DNA of 38,213 nucleotides from Alphaproteobacteria bacterium (GTDB lineage Bacteria > Pseudomonadota > Alphaproteobacteria > SHVW01). A program made the position numbers and the translations under genes. Under the pieces are notes generated by a model that had not been told where the DNA came from, did not search any database, and saw only the letters and a list, made by a program, of their open reading frames with translations. The stretch covers positions 1 to 38,213 of the forward strand of contig SHVW01000013.1 in assembly GCA_009694085.1 (NCBI GenBank), given 5' to 3'. This document shows, piece after piece, positions 11,326 to 19,945 of this stretch; the stretch's first letter is position 1, and each line of letters starts with the position of its first letter.

Positions 11326-14300
11326 ATGGCGGTCAAACCGGACGTGCTGAAGGCGGAGCTGGTCGACAAGCTCGCGGGCATGGCGAAACAGCGGCTGGGC
11401 GAGGCCAAGGGCGCGCAGGCCGAGGGCTTCATCAAGCGTTATTACAAAAACGTGGCGCCCGACGACATGAACGGCGTCGAGCCTGACGATCTGTTCGGCG
11501 CGGCCCTGTCGCTATGGAATTTTGGCGCCCAGCGCGCGGCCAAAACACCCAAAGTGCGCGCCTATAATCCACGGCTGGAGGAAAACGGCTGGCGCTCGGT
11601 CCACACGGTGATCGAGATCGTCAATGACGATATGCCGTTCCTGGTCGATTCCGTCACCGCCGAACTCAACCGCATGGATCCGACCGTCCATCTGGTCGTC
11701 CATCCCGTGGCTTATGTGAAGCGCGACGGCCAGGGCAAGCTGGTCAAGCCCTTGGAAAAGGGCGAGGCCGACGCCACGGCCGAATCCTACATGCATGTGG
11801 AGATTTCCGAGCAATCCTCGCCCGAGGCGCTGGACGGCATCGCCAAAGCCCTTCTGCGCGTGCTGGCCGACAATCGCGCCGCCGTGGAGGATTGGCGCGC
11901 CATGCGCAAGCGCATGGTCGATATCGTTGCTGCCATTCAAAAGGCACCGCCGCCGCTGCCCGGCGACGACGTGGCCGAGGCCTGCGAGTTCCTGCGCTGG
12001 GTCGAGGCCGAGCACTTCACCTTCCTCGGCTACCGCGAATTCGACTATGCCGGCACGGGCAAAGCGGCGCGCATGGCGGTGGTCGACAAATCCGGCCTGG
12101 GCATCCTGCGCGATCCCGAAACCCAGGTGTTCGAAGGACTGCGCGATATCGGCGCGCTCCCCGCCGATGTGCGCGATTTTCTGCACGAGCCGACCTTGCT
12201 GCTGATCATGAAGGCCGACCGCCAGGCTAGCGTGCACCGGCGCGTTCACATGGACAGCATCAGCATCAAGAAATTCGACGCCCAGGGCCGCGTCTCTGGC
12301 GAGCACCGCTTCGTCGGATTGTTCACCTCGGTCGCCTATAACCAGAGTCCCAAGCAGATTCCGTTACTGCGCCGGCGCGTCAGCCGCGCGGTCGAGCGTG
12401 CCGGCTTTACCCCGAGCAGCCATGACGGCAAGGCGATGGTCAACATTCTGGAGACCTTCCCGCGCGACGAGCTGTTCCAGATTTCCGACGACGAGCTGCT
12501 CGACGTGACCATGGGCATCCTGCATTTGCAGGAGCGCCAGCGCGTGGCCCTGTTCGTGCGGCGCGACCGGCTCGAACGCTTCGTGTCGAGCCTTGTCTAT
12601 GTGCCCCGCGACCATTTCAATACCGATCTCCGCCGGCGCATGCAGGCGATCCTGGAAACGGCCTTCAACGGCACGATCACCGCGTTCTACACCCAGCTCG
12701 CCGACAGCGTGCTGGCCCGGCTCCATTTCATCGTCAAGACCACGCGCGGCCAGATTCCCGATTACGACGTCAAGGAGATCGAGGCTCGCCTGATCGAAGC
12801 CGGTCGTTCCTGGACCGATCGGCTCCGCCAAGCGCTGATCGAAGGCAAGGGCGAGGAGCGCGGCTTGGCCCTGGCGCGCAAATACGGCGAGGCCTTTGCC
12901 GCCGCCTATCGCGAACATTTCAGCGCGGCGAGCGCGGTGTTCGATTTGGAGCGCATCGAGGAAGTACTCGCCACCGGCCGTGTCGGCCTCAATATCTATC
13001 ACCCGATCGAGGCGGCGGAATCCCAAGTCCACTTCAAGATTTTTCACACCGGCGCCCCGGTGCCGCTATCGAACGTGCTGCCCATGCTGGAGCATATGGG
13101 CCTGATGGTGGTCAGCGAGAATCCCTATCAGGTCTCGCCCAAGGGCGTGGAGCCGCAGATCTGGATTCACGATTTCGACATGGCGACCCGCTCGGGCCGC
13201 GAAGTCGACATCGCCAAATGCCGCGCCGTGTTCCACGAAGCCTTCGCCGCCGTGTGGAACGGTGAGATGGAAGACGACGGCTTCAACCGCCTGGTGCTGG
13301 CGGGCGGGCTGGCCTGGCGCGAGGTAACGATCCTGCGCGCTTACGCCAAATATTTGCGCCAGGCCGCGTTTACCTTCAGTCAGAGCTATATCGAGGACAC
13401 GCTGGCGAACCACGCCGGCATCGCGCGCCTGATCGTGCGCCTGTTCCTGACCCGCTTCGATCCGGCCAAGCAAGCCGACGCCGAAACCCAGACGCGCGGC
13501 ATCGCGGTAGAAATCGAACACGCGCTCGACGGCGTGACCAATCTGGACGAAGACCGCATCCTCCGGCGCTATCTGAACCTGGTGTCGTCGACGCTGCGTA
13601 CCAATTTCTTCCAGAAAGCGGCGAATGGCGGACCGAAATCCTACCTGTCCTTCAAGCTCGATAGCCGCAAGGTCGAGGAATTACCGCTACCGCGCCCGCT
13701 GGTCGAAGTGTTTGTTTACAGTCCGCGGGTCGAGGCGATCCATCTGCGCGGCGGCAAGGTGGCGCGCGGCGGCATCCGCTGGTCGGACCGGCGTGAGGAT
13801 TTCCGCACCGAGATTCTGGGCCTGATGAAGGCCCAGATGGTCAAGAACGCGGTCATCGTGCCCGTCGGCTCCAAGGGCGGTTTCGTGGTCAAGCGTCCGC
13901 CCGCCGAGGGCGGCCGCGAGGCTTATCTGGCCGAGGGCATCGAGTGCTACAAAACCCTGATGCGCGGCCTGCTCGACATCACCGATAACATCAAGTCGGG
14001 CGCCATCGTGCCGCCCAAGGACGTGGTGCGGCTGGATAAAGACGATCCCTATCTCGTGGTTGCCGCCGATAAAGGCACGGCCACCTTCTCCGACATCGCC
14101 AATTCCGTCTCGATCGAATACGGCCATTGGCTTGGCGACGCCTTCGCGTCCGGCGGTTCGGCCGGCTACGACCACAAGAAGATGGGCATCACGGCCAAGG
14201 GCGCCTGGGAATCGGTTAAGCGGCACTTCCGCGAAATCGGCGTCGACACCCAAAGTCAGGATTTCACCTGCGTCGGCGTCGGCGATATGGCGGGCGACGT

Positions 14301-16158
14301 GTTTGGCAACGGCATGTTGCTGTCCAAGCACATCAAGCTGGTCGCCGCCTTCAACCACATGCACATCTTCATCGATCCCAACCCCGACCCGGCCAAGACC
14401 TGGGCCGAGCGCAAGCGCATGTTCGACCTGCCGCGCTCGTCCTGGGCCGATTACGACGCCAAGCTGATCTCGGCTGGCGGCGGCCTATTCGAGCGCAAGG
14501 CCAAATCGATCAAGCTGTCACCCGAGGCGCGGGCCGCACTCGGCGTCGAACGCGATCAGATGACGCCGAACGAGCTGTTGACCGCCATCCTCAAGGCACC
14601 GGTCGACCTCATGTATTTCGGCGGCATCGGTTCCTATGTGAAGGCGTCGGACGAAAGCCATGCCGAATCCGGCGACCGCGCCAACGACGCTATCCGCATC
14701 AATGGCCGCGATCTCAAGGCCAAGGTGATGGGCGAAGGCGCCAATCTGGGCATGACCCAGCGCGGCCGCGTCGAATACGCCGGGAATGGCGGCCGGCTCA
14801 ACACCGATTTCATCGACAACTCCGCCGGCGTCGATTGCTCCGACCACGAGGTCAATATCAAGATCCTGATGAACGACGTGGTCGAGAGCGGCGATCTCAC
14901 GGTCAAGCAACGCGATGTCTTGCTGGCCGAGATGACCGACGAAGTCGCCGGCTTCGTGCTGCAAGACAACTATCTCCAATCCCAGGCCGTCAGCTTCGCT
15001 CAACATCAGGGCCCCGCCCTGCTCGACCAGCAGATCGCGCTGATGCGCGCGCTGGAAAAACAGGGACGCCTCGACCGCGCCATCGAGTTCCTCCCGCCGG
15101 ACGAGGTGTTGGCCGAGCGCCAGGCCGAGGGCAAGGGGCTGACCCGGCCGGAACTGGCCATCCTGCTGTCCTACAGCAAGATGACGCTGTACGACGATCT
15201 GCTGCCCTCCAGCCTGCCCGACGATCCCAAGCTGCTTGGCGACATCGCGCGCTATTTCCCCAAACGCCTGGGCAAACAGTTCCCCGACGCCATCCAACGC
15301 CATCGCCTGGGCCGCGAGATCGTGGCGACCTACATGACCAACAGCCTGGTCAACCGGGTCGGCGCCACCTTCGTCAACGTGATGACGGAAAAGACCGGCA
15401 TGGCCGCGCCCGACATCGCGCGCGCCTTTGCCATCAGCCGCGACGTGTTCCAACTGCGCAAGCTGTGGCGCGCGGTCGAGGCGTTGGACAACAAGGTGCC
15501 CGCCGCCCTTCAGAACGACATGCTCCGGGAAATGAGCGATCTGGTCGGCCGCGCCACACTGTGGTTCTTGCGCAACGGCAAGCAGGGCCTCGATATCGGC
15601 TCCCACATCCAGGAATTCCAGCCCGGGGTGGAGGAGCTGTTCGACTCGCTAGCCGACGCGCTGGTGCCCGAGGACCGCGCCGCGCTGGACGTGCGGGCAG
15701 CCGGGCTAGTCAAGCAAGGCGTGCCGGCGGAACTGGCCCGCCGGGTCGCCAGCCTGGACGTGTTGGTCGCCGCCTGCGACATCGTGCGCATCGGCCGGCA
15801 GAGCAATTTCGCACTGCTCGACGTGGCGCGCGTCTATTTCGCGTTGGGCGCGCATTTCGGTCTGGACTGGCTGCGCGGTGCCGCCGCGCGGGTCGTGCCG
15901 GAATCGCGCTGGGACCGTATGGCGGTTGGCGCCATTGTGGACGACCTGTTCGGCCACCAAGTCCAACTCACCCAGCGCGTGCTCGACCAGGCCAACGGCG
16001 CTTTGGGCGCCCCGGCGATCGAAAAATGGGTCGAGGGCCGCAAGGGCGCGGTCGACCGCACGACCCAGTTGGTTGCCGATCTCAAGAGCGCCGAGGGTAT
16101 CGAACTCGCCATGCTCGCGGTGGCCAACGGCCAGATGCGCGCCATGATGGGGGCGTGA
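11326..16158 (+). CDS. gdhB: NAD-specific glutamate dehydrogenase, large (180 kDa) class
   Basis: A 1,610-aa enzyme of the L-GDH180 class, which oxidatively deaminates glutamate to 2-oxoglutarate and ammonia with NAD+ and acts mainly in glutamate catabolism. The ~700-residue N-terminal regulatory part has ACT-like stretches (VNDDMPFLVDSVTAELNR). The catalytic half holds VARGGIRWSDRREDFRTEI, the substrate loop VPVGSKGGFVVKRP and KMGITAKGAWESVKRHF, then the NAD-binding region with VGVGDMAGDVFGNGML, followed by the family C-terminal domain. Length is normal and no lesion is visible. A GAGGGGG ribosome site precedes the ATG. It appears monocistronic: a decayed gene lies upstream and a perfect hairpin downstream. 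Confidence 0.97.
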   Translation: MAVKPDVLKAELVDKLAGMAKQRLGEAKGAQAEGFIKRYYKNVAPDDMNGVEPDDLFGAALSLWNFGAQRAAKTPKVRAYNPRLEENGWRSVHTVIEIVNDDMPFLVDSVTAELNRMDPTVHLVVHPVAYVKRDGQGKLVKPLEKGEADATAESYMHVEISEQSSPEALDGIAKALLRVLADNRAAVEDWRAMRKRMVDIVAAIQKAPPPLPGDDVAEACEFLRWVEAEHFTFLGYREFDYAGTGKAARMAVVDKSGLGILRDPETQVFEGLRDIGALPADVRDFLHEPTLLLIMKADRQASVHRRVHMDSISIKKFDAQGRVSGEHRFVGLFTSVAYNQSPKQIPLLRRRVSRAVERAGFTPSSHDGKAMVNILETFPRDELFQISDDELLDVTMGILHLQERQRVALFVRRDRLERFVSSLVYVPRDHFNTDLRRRMQAILETAFNGTITAFYTQLADSVLARLHFIVKTTRGQIPDYDVKEIEARLIEAGRSWTDRLRQALIEGKGEERGLALARKYGEAFAAAYREHFSAASAVFDLERIEEVLATGRVGLNIYHPIEAAESQVHFKIFHTGAPVPLSNVLPMLEHMGLMVVSENPYQVSPKGVEPQIWIHDFDMATRSGREVDIAKCRAVFHEAFAAVWNGEMEDDGFNRLVLAGGLAWREVTILRAYAKYLRQAAFTFSQSYIEDTLANHAGIARLIVRLFLTRFDPAKQADAETQTRGIAVEIEHALDGVTNLDEDRILRRYLNLVSSTLRTNFFQKAANGGPKSYLSFKLDSRKVEELPLPRPLVEVFVYSPRVEAIHLRGGKVARGGIRWSDRREDFRTEILGLMKAQMVKNAVIVPVGSKGGFVVKRPPAEGGREAYLAEGIECYKTLMRGLLDITDNIKSGAIVPPKDVVRLDKDDPYLVVAADKGTATFSDIANSVSIEYGHWLGDAFASGGSAGYDHKKMGITAKGAWESVKRHFREIGVDTQSQDFTCVGVGDMAGDVFGNGMLLSKHIKLVAAFNHMHIFIDPNPDPAKTWAERKRMFDLPRSSWADYDAKLISAGGGLFERKAKSIKLSPEARAALGVERDQMTPNELLTAILKAPVDLMYFGGIGSYVKASDESHAESGDRANDAIRINGRDLKAKVMGEGANLGMTQRGRVEYAGNGGRLNTDFIDNSAGVDCSDHEVNIKILMNDVVESGDLTVKQRDVLLAEMTDEVAGFVLQDNYLQSQAVSFAQHQGPALLDQQIALMRALEKQGRLDRAIEFLPPDEVLAERQAEGKGLTRPELAILLSYSKMTLYDDLLPSSLPDDPKLLGDIARYFPKRLGKQFPDAIQRHRLGREIVATYMTNSLVNRVGATFVNVMTEKTGMAAPDIARAFAISRDVFQLRKLWRAVEALDNKVPAALQNDMLREMSDLVGRATLWFLRNGKQGLDIGSHIQEFQPGVEELFDSLADALVPEDRAALDVRAAGLVKQGVPAELARRVASLDVLVAACDIVRIGRQSNFALLDVARVYFALGAHFGLDWLRGAAARVVPESRWDRMAVGAIVDDLFGHQVQLTQRVLDQANGALGAPAIEKWVEGRKGAVDRTTQLVADLKSAEGIELAMLAVANGQMRAMMGA

Positions 16159-16170
16159 ATCCCGGGGCCC

Positions 16171-16199
16171 TCCCCCGGATCGGAGTCCGATCCGGGGGA
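16171..16199 (+). terminator. Perfect hairpin after gdhB
   Basis: A 13-bp perfect stem (16171-16183 with 16187-16199) and a 3-base loop start 12 bases after the gdhB stop. No T-tract follows, so it may terminate weakly, act in both directions, or protect the mRNA 3' end. Confidence 0.6.
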
Positions 16200-16317
16200 A
16201 GTCGACTGGGAAAAGCCGGCATCCCGCCCTCGAAACGGCGGCAATTCCTGCCCACCTCTCGGCCGGGACCGTCAGTTTAATCTATTGAGTTTAAATACAT
16301 TATTTGGCAGATAGCGT

Positions 16318-16333
16318 CGGCACGGCACTTGCT
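16318..16333 (+). promoter_or_regulatory. Sigma-54 (-24/-12) promoter
   Basis: GGCACG and TTGCT are separated by four bases, so the invariant GG (16319-16320) and GC (16331-16332) lie exactly 10 bases apart, as RpoN promoters require. Only the first base of the extended consensus differs. An AT-rich stretch (about 16274-16305) just upstream is suitable for DNA bending. The site is about 60 bases before the ATG of the unknown gene at 16392. Confidence 0.65.
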
Positions 16334-16391
16334 TTCCCTAATCCTCCGAGGGCGCCTATTGCGTCTTCAGGGGAATTCGAGGGAGTTGTTC

Positions 16392-17045
16392 ATGTCCGCT
16401 GTTGCCGATGCCATGATGGATGCCGCCGATGGCCAGCCCGAGCAGGGCGCCGTGCCCGCCGCCATCGCCAAAGCCGCCCGCTTTCTGGTCGATCTCAAAT
16501 CCGGCAAGGTTGCCGATCGCGGCGAAGACAAGATCGGTGCCGCCAATCCCGCAGCACCCGCGCGCACCGATCACATCGCCATGGGACGGCCGACTTCCCA
16601 GCGCATCGCTGCCGCCCATGCTGCCGCCCAACGCGCATTGGGCATGACCGCCGCCGCACCCGTCGCTCAACGCCAGGAACCGCGTCTGGCCGCAGCACCT
16701 GCCGCACCCGCCCAGACCGCCGCCCGCCAAACCGCCACCGCCCAACCCGCAGCGCCCGCTGCCGCTGCGACACGCCCAGCCAATTCGGCAGCGCCGGCCA
16801 CCGCCCCGGCTGCTGCCCGCCGTGTTGTTGCTCAGCCGGCGGTGCGCGCCTCGGTCCCCGCCACTCAACCCGCCGCTGCCCCGCGCCCGGCCTTGTCGGT
16901 CCAACAATATTTGCGCGAACTGCAATTTCAAGTCAGCGGGCACAATCAGAACGAGGTTCGCCAGGCCCTGGTCGACGTGACGCCCGGCGAGATCGAGCGT
17001 GTCAGCCGCGTCGTCGCCAAGCTGCGCGGCCGATACCTTGCCTAG
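16392..17045 (+). CDS. Unknown Ala/Pro-rich protein, apparently ended early by an in-frame TAG
   Basis: I do not recognise this family. The ATG at 16392 has a GAGGGAG ribosome site and was chosen over an upstream in-frame start. The 217-aa product has a helical head (residues 1-50, with AAIAKAARFLVDLKSGKVAD), a long low-complexity Ala/Pro/Gln/Thr linker (about 75-175), and a helical C-terminal module starting LSVQQYLRELQFQVSGHNQN and ending RVVAKLRGRYLA. After the TAG at 17043-17045 the same frame continues for 53 more good codons to a second TAG at 17207. The original protein was therefore probably about 271 aa. There is no signal peptide. The sigma-54 promoter upstream suggests tightly switched expression. 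Confidence 0.65.
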   Translation: MSAVADAMMDAADGQPEQGAVPAAIAKAARFLVDLKSGKVADRGEDKIGAANPAAPARTDHIAMGRPTSQRIAAAHAAAQRALGMTAAAPVAQRQEPRLAAAPAAPAQTAARQTATAQPAAPAAAATRPANSAAPATAPAAARRVVAQPAVRASVPATQPAAAPRPALSVQQYLRELQFQVSGHNQNEVRQALVDVTPGEIERVSRVVAKLRGRYLA

Positions 17046-17207
17046 GCGCTCGAACTCGGCCAGACCGTGCACAAGCCAGTGCCCGAAGGCGAGATCAAAC
17101 AGCTGCGCGCCCATCGCGAAATGTTTGAGGAGGCCGCGCGCGGTCTCGACTATCTGAAAGACGCGATCGAAAAGGGCGATATCGGACTCAACGGCGTGAT
17201 CATGTAG
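17046..17207 (+). pseudogene. In-frame continuation of the preceding gene beyond the amber codon
   Basis: These 53 codons and a TAG follow the preceding gene in the same frame. They read as an amphipathic, charged helical tail (for example EGEIKQLRAHREMFEEAARG and LDYLKDAIEKGDIGLNG) with native-looking high-GC codons. No ribosome site or good start precedes them, so a separate gene is unlikely. Most simply this is the detached C-terminus after a nonsense change or a base-call error. Confidence 0.55.
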
Positions 17208-17255
17208 CGCTGCGCTTCCAGCTCCCCCGCCGGTTTTCCCCGACCGGCTCTCCCC

Positions 17256-17291
17256 ACCGGGCTCTCTCATGCGAGGGGGCCCGGTTCCCTT
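17256..17291 (+). terminator. Candidate terminator hairpin before zapE
   Basis: ACCGGGC (17256-17262) pairs perfectly with GCCCGGT (17279-17285), with further partial pairing inside the loop, followed by a short pyrimidine run ending in TTTT. It lies about 50 bases after the second stop of the unknown gene. Confidence 0.45.
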
Positions 17292-17394
17292 TTGGGGCAA
17301 CGGCCTGACCGCCCTGTTCGGGGATAGGCTTGCCTAGGCCGGTGGCATCGGCTACCTAACGGGTCATGTCGTTCCTGAGCGATTCGGCCCGGCG

Positions 17395-18516
17395 ATGACG
17401 GACGGACCTATTGCCGTCTATCGCGCACGCACCGGCGCGGGCGCAATCCGGCCCGACCCCGCCCAGGCGCTCGCCGTCGAAAAACTCCAGGTCCTGCACA
17501 ACGCCCTGATCGGCTACGAACCCGCGCTCGGCCGCACCGGTTGGCGCGAGCGGCTGGGCCTGGGCGCGAGCCATGCCGCCGCACCCCAGGGCCTCTACCT
17601 CTATGGCGGCGTCGGGCGCGGCAAATCCATGCTGATGGATTTGTTCTTCGAGACCGCGCCGGTCAAGGAGAAGCGCCGGGTCCATTTCCACGAATTCATG
17701 CAGGAATGCCATCAACGCATCCATGCCTGGCGCCAGGTCAACAAGGTCTCCAAGACCAGCGAGCCGATTCGACCGCTCGCCCGCACCATCGCCGAACATG
17801 CCTGGCTGATCTGCTTCGACGAATTCCAGGTGCTCGACATTGCCGACGCCATGATCCTGGGGCGATTGTTCTTTGCGCTGTTCGAACTGGGCGTCGTCGT
17901 GGTCGCGACGTCAAATCGTCCGCCCGACGATCTCTATAAGGACGGGCTGCAACGCGACCTGTTCCTGCCCTTCATCAAGATGCTCAAGCACAAGCACGAC
18001 GTGCTCGAACTCGACGGCGGCGTCGATTACCGGCTCCAGCGTCTGCGCCGCATGCAGGTCTATCACGCACCGCTCGGCGCGCCCTCGGCGCGCGCGCTCG
18101 ACGATGCCTTTGCCCAATTGACCGACAACGAACCCGGCCAGCTCGACCGCTTACAGGTACTGGGCCGCATCCTCGACATTCCCCGCCAGGCCAAGGGCGT
18201 GGCACACTTCGCGTTTCACGAGCTGTGCGAGCGACCGCTGGGTGCGGCCGACTATCTGGCGATCGCCGGCCAGTACCACACAGTGATCCTGTCCGGCGTG
18301 CCCGTGCTGGGGCCGGAGAACCGCAACGAGGCCAAGCGCTTCGTCACCCTGATCGACGCACTCTACGAACACCGGGTCAATCTGGTGTGTTCGGCCGCCG
18401 CACCACCGGAGACGCTGTATCCCGCGGGCGACGGCGCGTTCGAGTTCCAGCGCACAGTCTCGCGCCTGATGGAAATGCAGTCGGCCGACTATATCGAGTT
18501 GGCGCATCTGCCTTAA
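17395..18516 (+). CDS. zapE: Cell division protein ZapE (AFG1-like ATPase)
   Basis: A 373-aa AAA-type ATPase of the AFG1/ZapE family; bacterial ZapE associates with the Z-ring and modulates FtsZ assembly. Walker A is GGVGRGKS at 71-78, Walker B is LICFDEFQ at about 138-145, and the sensor region VVVATSNRPPDDLYKDGLQR is diagnostic, as is HFHEFMQ. The tail has ENRNEAKRFVTLIDALYE, also typical. Length is normal. phoR starts 28 bases downstream on the same strand, so read-through into phoR is possible. Confidence 0.93.
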   Translation: MTDGPIAVYRARTGAGAIRPDPAQALAVEKLQVLHNALIGYEPALGRTGWRERLGLGASHAAAPQGLYLYGGVGRGKSMLMDLFFETAPVKEKRRVHFHEFMQECHQRIHAWRQVNKVSKTSEPIRPLARTIAEHAWLICFDEFQVLDIADAMILGRLFFALFELGVVVVATSNRPPDDLYKDGLQRDLFLPFIKMLKHKHDVLELDGGVDYRLQRLRRMQVYHAPLGAPSARALDDAFAQLTDNEPGQLDRLQVLGRILDIPRQAKGVAHFAFHELCERPLGAADYLAIAGQYHTVILSGVPVLGPENRNEAKRFVTLIDALYEHRVNLVCSAAAPPETLYPAGDGAFEFQRTVSRLMEMQSADYIELAHLP

Positions 18517-18544
18517 CGGCGGCGCTAGAACATAGGAACGGAGC

Positions 18545-19945
18545 ATGCCGAACTCGGACGTTTCCGCTCGCCCGCTCGTCCTCGCCGCGCTTGCGCTTGC
18601 CTTGCCGTTTCTTGTTGCCATGCTGGCGCTTGCAGCGATCGAGGGGATCGGGATCGGCGCGATCGTGGCAACCTGGATCGCCGGCAGCCTGGCCATGGCC
18701 GCGATCGTCGCACGTCACCTGCGGCAGCTGCGCGCGCTTCGCCGCCAGATCGAGCTAGGAGAACGGCCCAGCGAACCGGACTCGATCTTGGCCGACCTGG
18801 TCGAGGCGGCGGCGCGGCTTGCGCGCGAGAACCAGGAACTGGAAGCGCGCGCCGTCGCGTCGGCGCGCGCGCGCGAGGCCATGTTGGATGCCGTGCCGGA
18901 ACCGGTGCTGCTGCTCGCACGCGATGGGCGGGTAGCGGTCGTCAACCAGGCCGCCCGCGATCTGCTCGGCATCGATTGCGCCGGGCGCGATCTGGCCGAG
19001 GTGTTGCGCTATCCCCAAGTCCTACAGGCCGCGAGCGCCGTGCTGGTTGACGGCAGAGCCCGTGCGGTGGAGGCGGCGCTGGTCGCGCCGGCGCCGCGCA
19101 ACTTGGATGTTCGTATTGCGCCCTTGCCTGGACTGGCACCGGAAGATGGCGCGGCGCTCGTGATGTTGGGCGACCTGACGGCGATCCGTCGAGCCGAGCG
19201 CACGCGTGCCGATTTCATCGCCAATGTCAGCCACGAGTTGCGCACGCCGCTTGCCTCGATCATCGGCTTTATCGAGACGCTGCGCGGCCCGGCCCAAGAC
19301 GATGCGCCGGCGCGTGCGCAGTTTTTGGAAATCATGGACCAGCAGGCCCAGCGCATGGCCCGCTTGGTCGCCGATCTGTTGTCGCTGGCGCGCATCGAGC
19401 AGAACGAGCACACGCCGCCAACCGGTCGGATTGCGATTCTTCCCTTGCTTGGCACCGTCAAGGACGCGCTCGCCCCGGCGGCGCAACGGCGCGACATGGC
19501 GATCGCGATCGACGCGGCACCCGATCTGCCCGACATCGCCGGCGAGACCGACGAAGTCGCCCAGGTGTTCCAGAACTTGATCGACAACGCACTGAAATAC
19601 GGCCGCACCGGCACAACAGTGACGGTTCGCGCCAGCATCGCCGACGATCCGCCCCCGGCCTTTCCGCACCCGCCCGGCACCCGCCCACGGGTGCTCGCTG
19701 TGGCCGTGCGCGACGTCAGTGCCGGTATCGCGCCCGAGTATCTGCCCCGTCTGACCGAGCGATTCTACCGCATCGACGTGGCCCGTTCGCGCGATGCCGG
19801 CGGCACCGGGCTTGGCCTTGCCATCGTCAAGCACATCCTGGGCCGGCACCGCGGTACGCTGACGATCGAGAGCGAGGTGGGCCGGGGCAGCACATTCACC
19901 GCCTATCTTCCGCTCGCACCGGACAAAAAGCCTTCGACCTCTTGA
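18545..19945 (+). CDS. phoR: Phosphate-regulon sensor histidine kinase PhoR
   Basis: A 466-aa kinase with two N-terminal membrane helices (about 10-32 and 36-57), a short coiled coil, a PAS domain (about 112-215, containing AVPEPVLLLARDGRVAVVNQ), and a HisKA-HATPase core. The phospho-His is His230 in NVSHELRTPLASIIGFIETL; the N-box is QNLIDNALKYG, and the G2 box is GGTGLGLAIVKHILGRH. RLTERFYRID is the PhoR-type F-box. The G1 box reads DVSAG (390-394) instead of the usual DxGxG, an uncommon change in the ATP lid. With PstSCAB and PhoU it would sense phosphate and control PhoB, which is encoded at the other end of the cluster. Confidence 0.93.
   Translation: MPNSDVSARPLVLAALALALPFLVAMLALAAIEGIGIGAIVATWIAGSLAMAAIVARHLRQLRALRRQIELGERPSEPDSILADLVEAAARLARENQELEARAVASARAREAMLDAVPEPVLLLARDGRVAVVNQAARDLLGIDCAGRDLAEVLRYPQVLQAASAVLVDGRARAVEAALVAPAPRNLDVRIAPLPGLAPEDGAALVMLGDLTAIRRAERTRADFIANVSHELRTPLASIIGFIETLRGPAQDDAPARAQFLEIMDQQAQRMARLVADLLSLARIEQNEHTPPTGRIAILPLLGTVKDALAPAAQRRDMAIAIDAAPDLPDIAGETDEVAQVFQNLIDNALKYGRTGTTVTVRASIADDPPPAFPHPPGTRPRVLAVAVRDVSAGIAPEYLPRLTERFYRIDVARSRDAGGTGLGLAIVKHILGRHRGTLTIESEVGRGSTFTAYLPLAPDKKPSTS

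Follow-up and report, generated by a model that had tools for sequence, protein, structure and literature searches.

What switches on the unnamed gene at 16392..17045, and which regulon does it belong to? The question arises in a 38,213-nucleotide (nt) stretch of DNA (contig C110, here called the window) from the MAG of a freshwater alphaproteobacterium (3.08 Mb in 141 contigs, 70.6% complete). The original prediction placed a sigma-54 promoter at 16318-16333 and named nitrogen, flagella, and the envelope as the usual fields of RpoN targets. The best reading, which the data below support, is that 16318-16333 is a putative RpoN (sigma-54) promoter ahead of a gene without a named family. The explanation as a whole, with an RpoN promoter, a palindrome-bound activator, and a gene of the flagellar regulon, has in our estimate a probability of about 0.78.

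The putative promoter element and its conservation

Direct reading of the element CGGCACGGCACTTGCT (16318..16333, forward strand) shows GG at 16319-16320 and GC at 16331-16332, exactly ten bases apart, and this confirmed the predicted GG-N10-GC spacing. Compared with the sigma-54 consensus TGGCACG-N4-TTGCW, the element has one mismatch, C for T at the first base. It is the sole site in the window with at most one mismatch; at up to two mismatches, 4 sites were observed, and 8.04 were expected from shuffles. Transcription from sigma-54 promoters usually starts 12 nt downstream of the -12 GC, and the transcription start of the unnamed gene is thus expected at approximately 16343-16344. The predicted 5' leader inferred from this spacing (16343..16391, forward strand) contains a Shine-Dalgarno-like AGGGAG at 16380-16385, and the ATG at 16392 lies 58 bp downstream of the motif. 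The region had been described as otherwise sigma-70-like. A promoter scan of 16100-16450 found no sigma-70-type promoter, and we dropped this description.

Upstream of the locus is a large NAD-glutamate dehydrogenase gene (11326-16158), and downstream are zapE/AFG1 (17395-18516) and a gene for a PhoR-like kinase (18545-19945). Behind the glutamate dehydrogenase gene, at 16165-16200, we noted a perfect-looking inverted repeat, CCCCCGGATCGGAGTCCGATCCGGGGG, which has no T run and was not listed by a terminator scan. Inverted repeats seen by eye had also suggested that the 5' leader might form a conserved RNA structure. This candidate was rejected: 20 leaders (that of L033 was left out for its length) folded with a mean z of -0.31 against shuffles, the leader in the window folded no better than its shuffles (z of -0.75), and the stretch 15000-18600 gave no Rfam match.

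In the congener G001 (contig VGDO01000025.1), an orthologue with 69% identity is preceded by the element CGGCACGCCACTTGCT, located 51 bp ahead of its ATG. The rest of the leader is only partly alike and the gene upstream of the orthologue differs from that in the window, yet the sigma-54 element is kept. A profile of the C-terminal domain of the protein was then compared with 385 genomes of the class, yielding matches at 55 places in 46 genomes. One place (L042), where the match runs into the end of its contig, was left out. The 54 places examined comprise 21 homologues that have a long N-terminus and represent 11 genera, 9 short homologues (together the first set of 30 loci), and 24 weaker matches. 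Long and short refer to at least 45 and at most 17 residues ahead of the domain, counted from the ATG; this split was noticed post hoc, once the promoters had been inspected.

All 21 long homologues have a GG-N10-GC site upstream, 20 of them with at most two mismatches and L017 with three. The site lies 36-66 bp ahead of the chosen ATG in 20 of the 21 cases and 188 bp ahead in L033. Since the ATG had been chosen as the first one after the site, sites were counted again in a stretch of fixed extent around the first start codon. By this measure the site was found in 18/21 long homologues, compared with 0/21 in antisense orientation, 0/9 short homologues, and 9/225 neighbouring genes (Fisher P = 6e-18). 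Among the weaker domain matches, 1/24 had a site with at most two mismatches. Thus, the sigma-54 site goes with one subfamily rather than with the domain superfamily as a whole. When 398 genomes were drawn from the phylum, eight matched the domain, one of them outside the class, and no close sigma-54 site was found at the five new matches from this draw. A short relative of the domain lacking the site occurs at least once in another class of the phylum (L128 in G659).

Could the motif be a chance match that is no promoter at all? In neither genome do matches this good outnumber those of the reversed control: those with at most one mismatch number 16 (reversed pattern, 21) in the window's own genome and 55 (reversed pattern, 63) in the congener, without enrichment in either. 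With a frequency at chance level, the motif by itself proves nothing, and the evidence lies in position and conservation. The predicted promoter is therefore upheld by its conservation and not by the rarity of its motif. Against the background of neighbouring genes and antisense strands given above, the constant position across 11 genera makes a chance match extremely unlikely, and we consider it highly likely that the element acts as a promoter within the lineage.

The upstream palindrome and the genes that share it

Comparison of the upstream DNA of the window and the congener revealed a near-palindrome, CGGCA-N5-TGCCG, at -79 and -78, respectively, from the promoter element. In the window it is CGGCAATTCCTGCCC (16239..16253, forward strand), which has one mismatch to this pattern and is a candidate site for a flagellar sigma-54 activator. 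The pattern was derived from these two sequences and tested on the other 19 homologues at -150 to -25. In this held-out set it was exact in 4 and had at most one mismatch in 8, whereas shuffles gave 0.017 and 0.27; the corresponding counts for neighbour regions were 1/224 and 9/224. The remaining 11 of the 19, including all four of genus g38, lack it at this threshold.

The same enhancer-like pattern was seen at flagellar genes. It is exact ahead of the congener flagellin L113 and has one mismatch ahead of L114, both with sigma-54 sites, and among fliK genes with sigma-54 sites it is exact at L106 and has one mismatch at L109. At nitrogen genes it reached at best two mismatches (both amtB promoters in the congener) and three (glnB of the window's own genome). 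It also had two or three mismatches at the congener promoters of the FlgF/E-type gene (L062), FlgK (L083), and FliS (L063, L082), at the flagellin L115, and at three DUF1217 sigma-54 promoters, showing that not all flagellar promoters are marked by the motif. Against a flagellar assignment, only 3 of the 9 congener flagellins examined, out of 11 matches, have a close sigma-54 site, and the two flagellins in the window's own genome have none.

We searched the 21 family genomes for a combined pattern consisting of the enhancer, 38-68 bases, and GGC-N7-TTGC. It gave 39 matches in 18 of the 21 genomes, compared with 7 for the reversed pattern (binomial P = 2e-6), and no exact match in the window's own genome. 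The promoter had at most two mismatches in 25 of the 39, and the breakdown by genes covers these; a good promoter is lacking in most of the remaining 14. Four of the 25 precede members of the unnamed family, two flagellin genes (L137, L164), two FlgB genes (L141, L143), and three genes for FlgE-type hook or rod proteins (L139, L154, L166). Three more precede genes of GGDEF diguanylate cyclases (L145, L158, L165), one an NMT1-like gene (L151), and ten genes without an assigned family (L144 and L170 are outside the family test). Altogether, 11 of the 25, including the NMT1-like one, precede genes without an identified flagellar role.

Some of these targets are related to each other. The GGDEF proteins L145 (G057), L158 (G317), and L165 (G372) are short (249-257 aa) and mutually related, and in three genera their genes are preceded by the enhancer and the sigma-54 promoter; they may represent a c-di-GMP branch within the flagellar regulon. 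The unnamed proteins L140 (G203) and L169 (G350), both with the combined promoter pattern, are 53% identical over 97 aa and have an NPLQHIP motif in common. As for gene neighbourhoods, no conserved neighbour was found across families in the 21 neighbourhoods; only zapE is next in both congeners. In some genera the family gene lies near DUF1217 or fliK genes that have sigma-54 sites of their own, and in genus g135 near the DUF1217 genes L099, L100, and L102, whose sigma-54-type sites have 1-2 mismatches.

An AT-rich bend upstream of the motif had also been predicted. The stretch is present, with 85% A+T between -40 and -21 relative to the motif in the window. Between enhancer and promoter it contains an IHF-like site (16278..16290, reverse strand) with one mismatch to the IHF consensus WATCAANNNNTTR. 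The congener has an IHF-like site at the same position, and sites with at most one mismatch were found in 4/21 homologues, compared with 0.62 expected. This is weakly consistent with the usual bending of DNA between an enhancer and a sigma-54 promoter.

Flagellin genes were present in 21/21 family genomes (E of 3e-16 or better) and in 28/50 genomes without the domain (Fisher P = 1e-4, uncorrected for kinship); as the family genomes are related, this P overstates the case. In related genomes the arrangement of enhancer plus promoter is also found ahead of fliK and of genes for flagellin, hook, and rod proteins, which places the unnamed gene, very probably, in the RpoN-dependent flagellar regulon. 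From the motif, its conservation, the shared enhancer, and the co-occurrence with flagellins, we infer activator binding, transcription, and a flagellar role. In the proposed mechanism, a bacterial enhancer-binding protein of the flagellar hierarchy would bind the palindrome at 16239-16253, about 40-75 bp upstream of the promoter, and the AT-rich stretch, perhaps bound by IHF, would bend the DNA between the two. The activator would then open the RpoN polymerase at 16318-16333, driving a single gene, and the unnamed product would be made together with the hook and rod wave. The gene of this freshwater bacterium thus probably belongs to the apparatus for building or running the bacterial tail.

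The unnamed protein and its in-frame TAG

The open reading frame (16392..17045, forward strand, table 11) encodes 217 residues and ends at an in-frame TAG (17043-17045) inside a conserved helical domain of about 100 residues at the C-terminus, where conservation of the gene is highest. This domain (16887..17204, forward strand) continues past the TAG up to a second TAG at 17205-17207, and the protein would have 271 residues if the first TAG were passed. The congener copy and other family members are open at this position. Thus, the product in the window may be truncated. Compared with the congener, dN/dS values are 0.06/0.53 before the TAG and 0.13/0.62 after it, which indicates that the stretch behind the TAG was under selection until recently. 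The TAG may mark a genuine loss, or it may be a variant of the strain, an error in the assembly of the MAG, or a codon that is read through.

According to an AlphaFold2 model, the protein consists of helices only, with a pLDDT of 66.8 for the whole and 90.8 for the domain, which has three helices. The N-terminus is of low complexity, rich in Ala and Pro, and modelled with low confidence. Foldseek and VIA-align gave no match above generic helical hairpins, and no solved structure related by sequence was found. No Pfam family was matched at the cut-off, NCBIfam and PHROGs gave no match for the family, and searches of plasmids with three members were negative; the view that the protein has no nameable family held in all these searches. 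The nameless family, which precludes a search by name, is not described in the available portions of PMC12316311, PMC12826043, PMC3930126, and PMC3096577.

FlgM (PF04316) was considered as an identity. The similarity is weak and limited to 4/21 members, with a best E of 0.007 and at most 16.5 bits among the matches listed; all four are below the curated cut-off of 25, and the best stretch among the matches listed covers 32 aa. The flagellar chaperones FlgN, FliT, FliS, and FliJ were absent from the Pfam matches of the 21 members (E up to 10) and from the fold matches listed, which contain only generic helical hairpins; this absence does not speak against a chaperone. As a guess, which we regard as possible but somewhat improbable, the product could be a small soluble accessory protein of flagellar assembly or export, chaperone-like or checkpoint-like. 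A more specific idea is very unlikely: that the family is an undescribed alphaproteobacterial flagellar checkpoint protein, exported or bound, which is made with the hook/rod sigma-54 wave and does the job of FlgM in RpoN-using bacteria lacking FliA/FlgM. If it were true, the truncation in the window would mean that the checkpoint has been lost naturally.

Competing explanations and known flagellar systems

The RpoN DNA-binding domain is present in 20 of the 21 family genomes, which together with the element's constant place in 11 genera supports the sigma-54 interpretation. The congener has RpoN. In the window's own genome, at 70.6% completeness, neither an RpoN domain nor a flagellar-type activator was found; there are five Sigma54_activat matches, only one with GAFTGA, and this sole clear activator sits in a tandem pair, an arrangement typical of ntrC/ntrX. 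The glnB-type P-II gene of the same genome (L052, contig C92) is preceded by the site TGGCATGGCCCTTGCT at a distance of 71 bp, and an NtrC-like box lies at -98.

These observations bear on two further explanations. The promoter might be real and be run by NtrC and the nitrogen status, or by another activator, outside the flagellar regulon. The tandem-pair activator is in line with this, as are nitrogen genes with RpoN-type promoters in both genomes (glnB in the window's own, amtB in the congener) and the absence of the flagellar-type enhancer from about half of the homologues. Scored against the NtrC consensus, however, the box has one mismatch at glnB and 3-4 at the two congener amtB promoters, and among the 21 family promoters it was never better than two mismatches. 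The enhancer recurs at the promoters of fliK and of flagellin, hook, and rod genes, but not at those of glnB or amtB, and flagellins occur in every family genome. Control from outside the flagellar regulon is thus quite unlikely. Among the fields of RpoN function originally offered, flagella are favoured by the shared enhancer-like element, the neighbours, and the co-occurrence, and the test for an NtrC-type box spoke against nitrogen.

The locus might also be a relic, with a promoter conserved in the lineage, a system lost from this bacterium, a pseudogene downstream, and rpoN truly absent. The TAG inside the conserved domain and the failure to find an RpoN domain would fit, as would the two flagellins of this genome, which have no sigma-54 sites. 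On the other hand, almost 30% of the genome is missing, and the GAFTGA activator together with the glnB promoter and its NtrC-like box suggest that RpoN works and lies in the missing part. The purifying selection past the TAG means that any loss is recent, or that the TAG is a variant or an assembly error, and the promoter element itself is intact. Taken together, we consider a relic unlikely, and we prefer an RpoN-dependent flagellar gene. With this reading, a hypothetical protein gains a concrete function class, the flagellum, and the enhancer-promoter pattern becomes a means to list the whole regulon, short diguanylate cyclases included.

The closest known system is that of the Caulobacter flagellar promoters, with the roles of FlbD, ftr, and IHF (PMC3930126, PMC3096577). 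As far as the available portions of these papers go, the likeness is that in both cases, within the Alphaproteobacteria, genes for hook, rod, and flagellin have a sigma-54 promoter and an element upstream of it. It is a likeness in the arrangement of sites: the candidate enhancer here has the sequence CGGCA-N5-TGCCG, and an unnamed protein is among the targets. The accessible part of the work on the RpoN-dependent flagella of Azospirillum brasilense does not treat the family; Asf6 (98 aa, beside rpoE6) is a different gene in a different setting. With FlgM, an anti-sigma-28 protein, the unnamed protein shares a low-complexity N-terminus, C-terminal helices, and the flagellar regulon; unlike FlgM, it is longer and has a domain of three helices, and its Pfam similarity is below the curated cut-off. 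RpoN-driven flagellar promoters are thus an already known type. New are an unnamed family without a matching Pfam or NCBIfam model and the maintenance of its promoter, with a flagellar-type enhancer, across 11 alphaproteobacterial genera.
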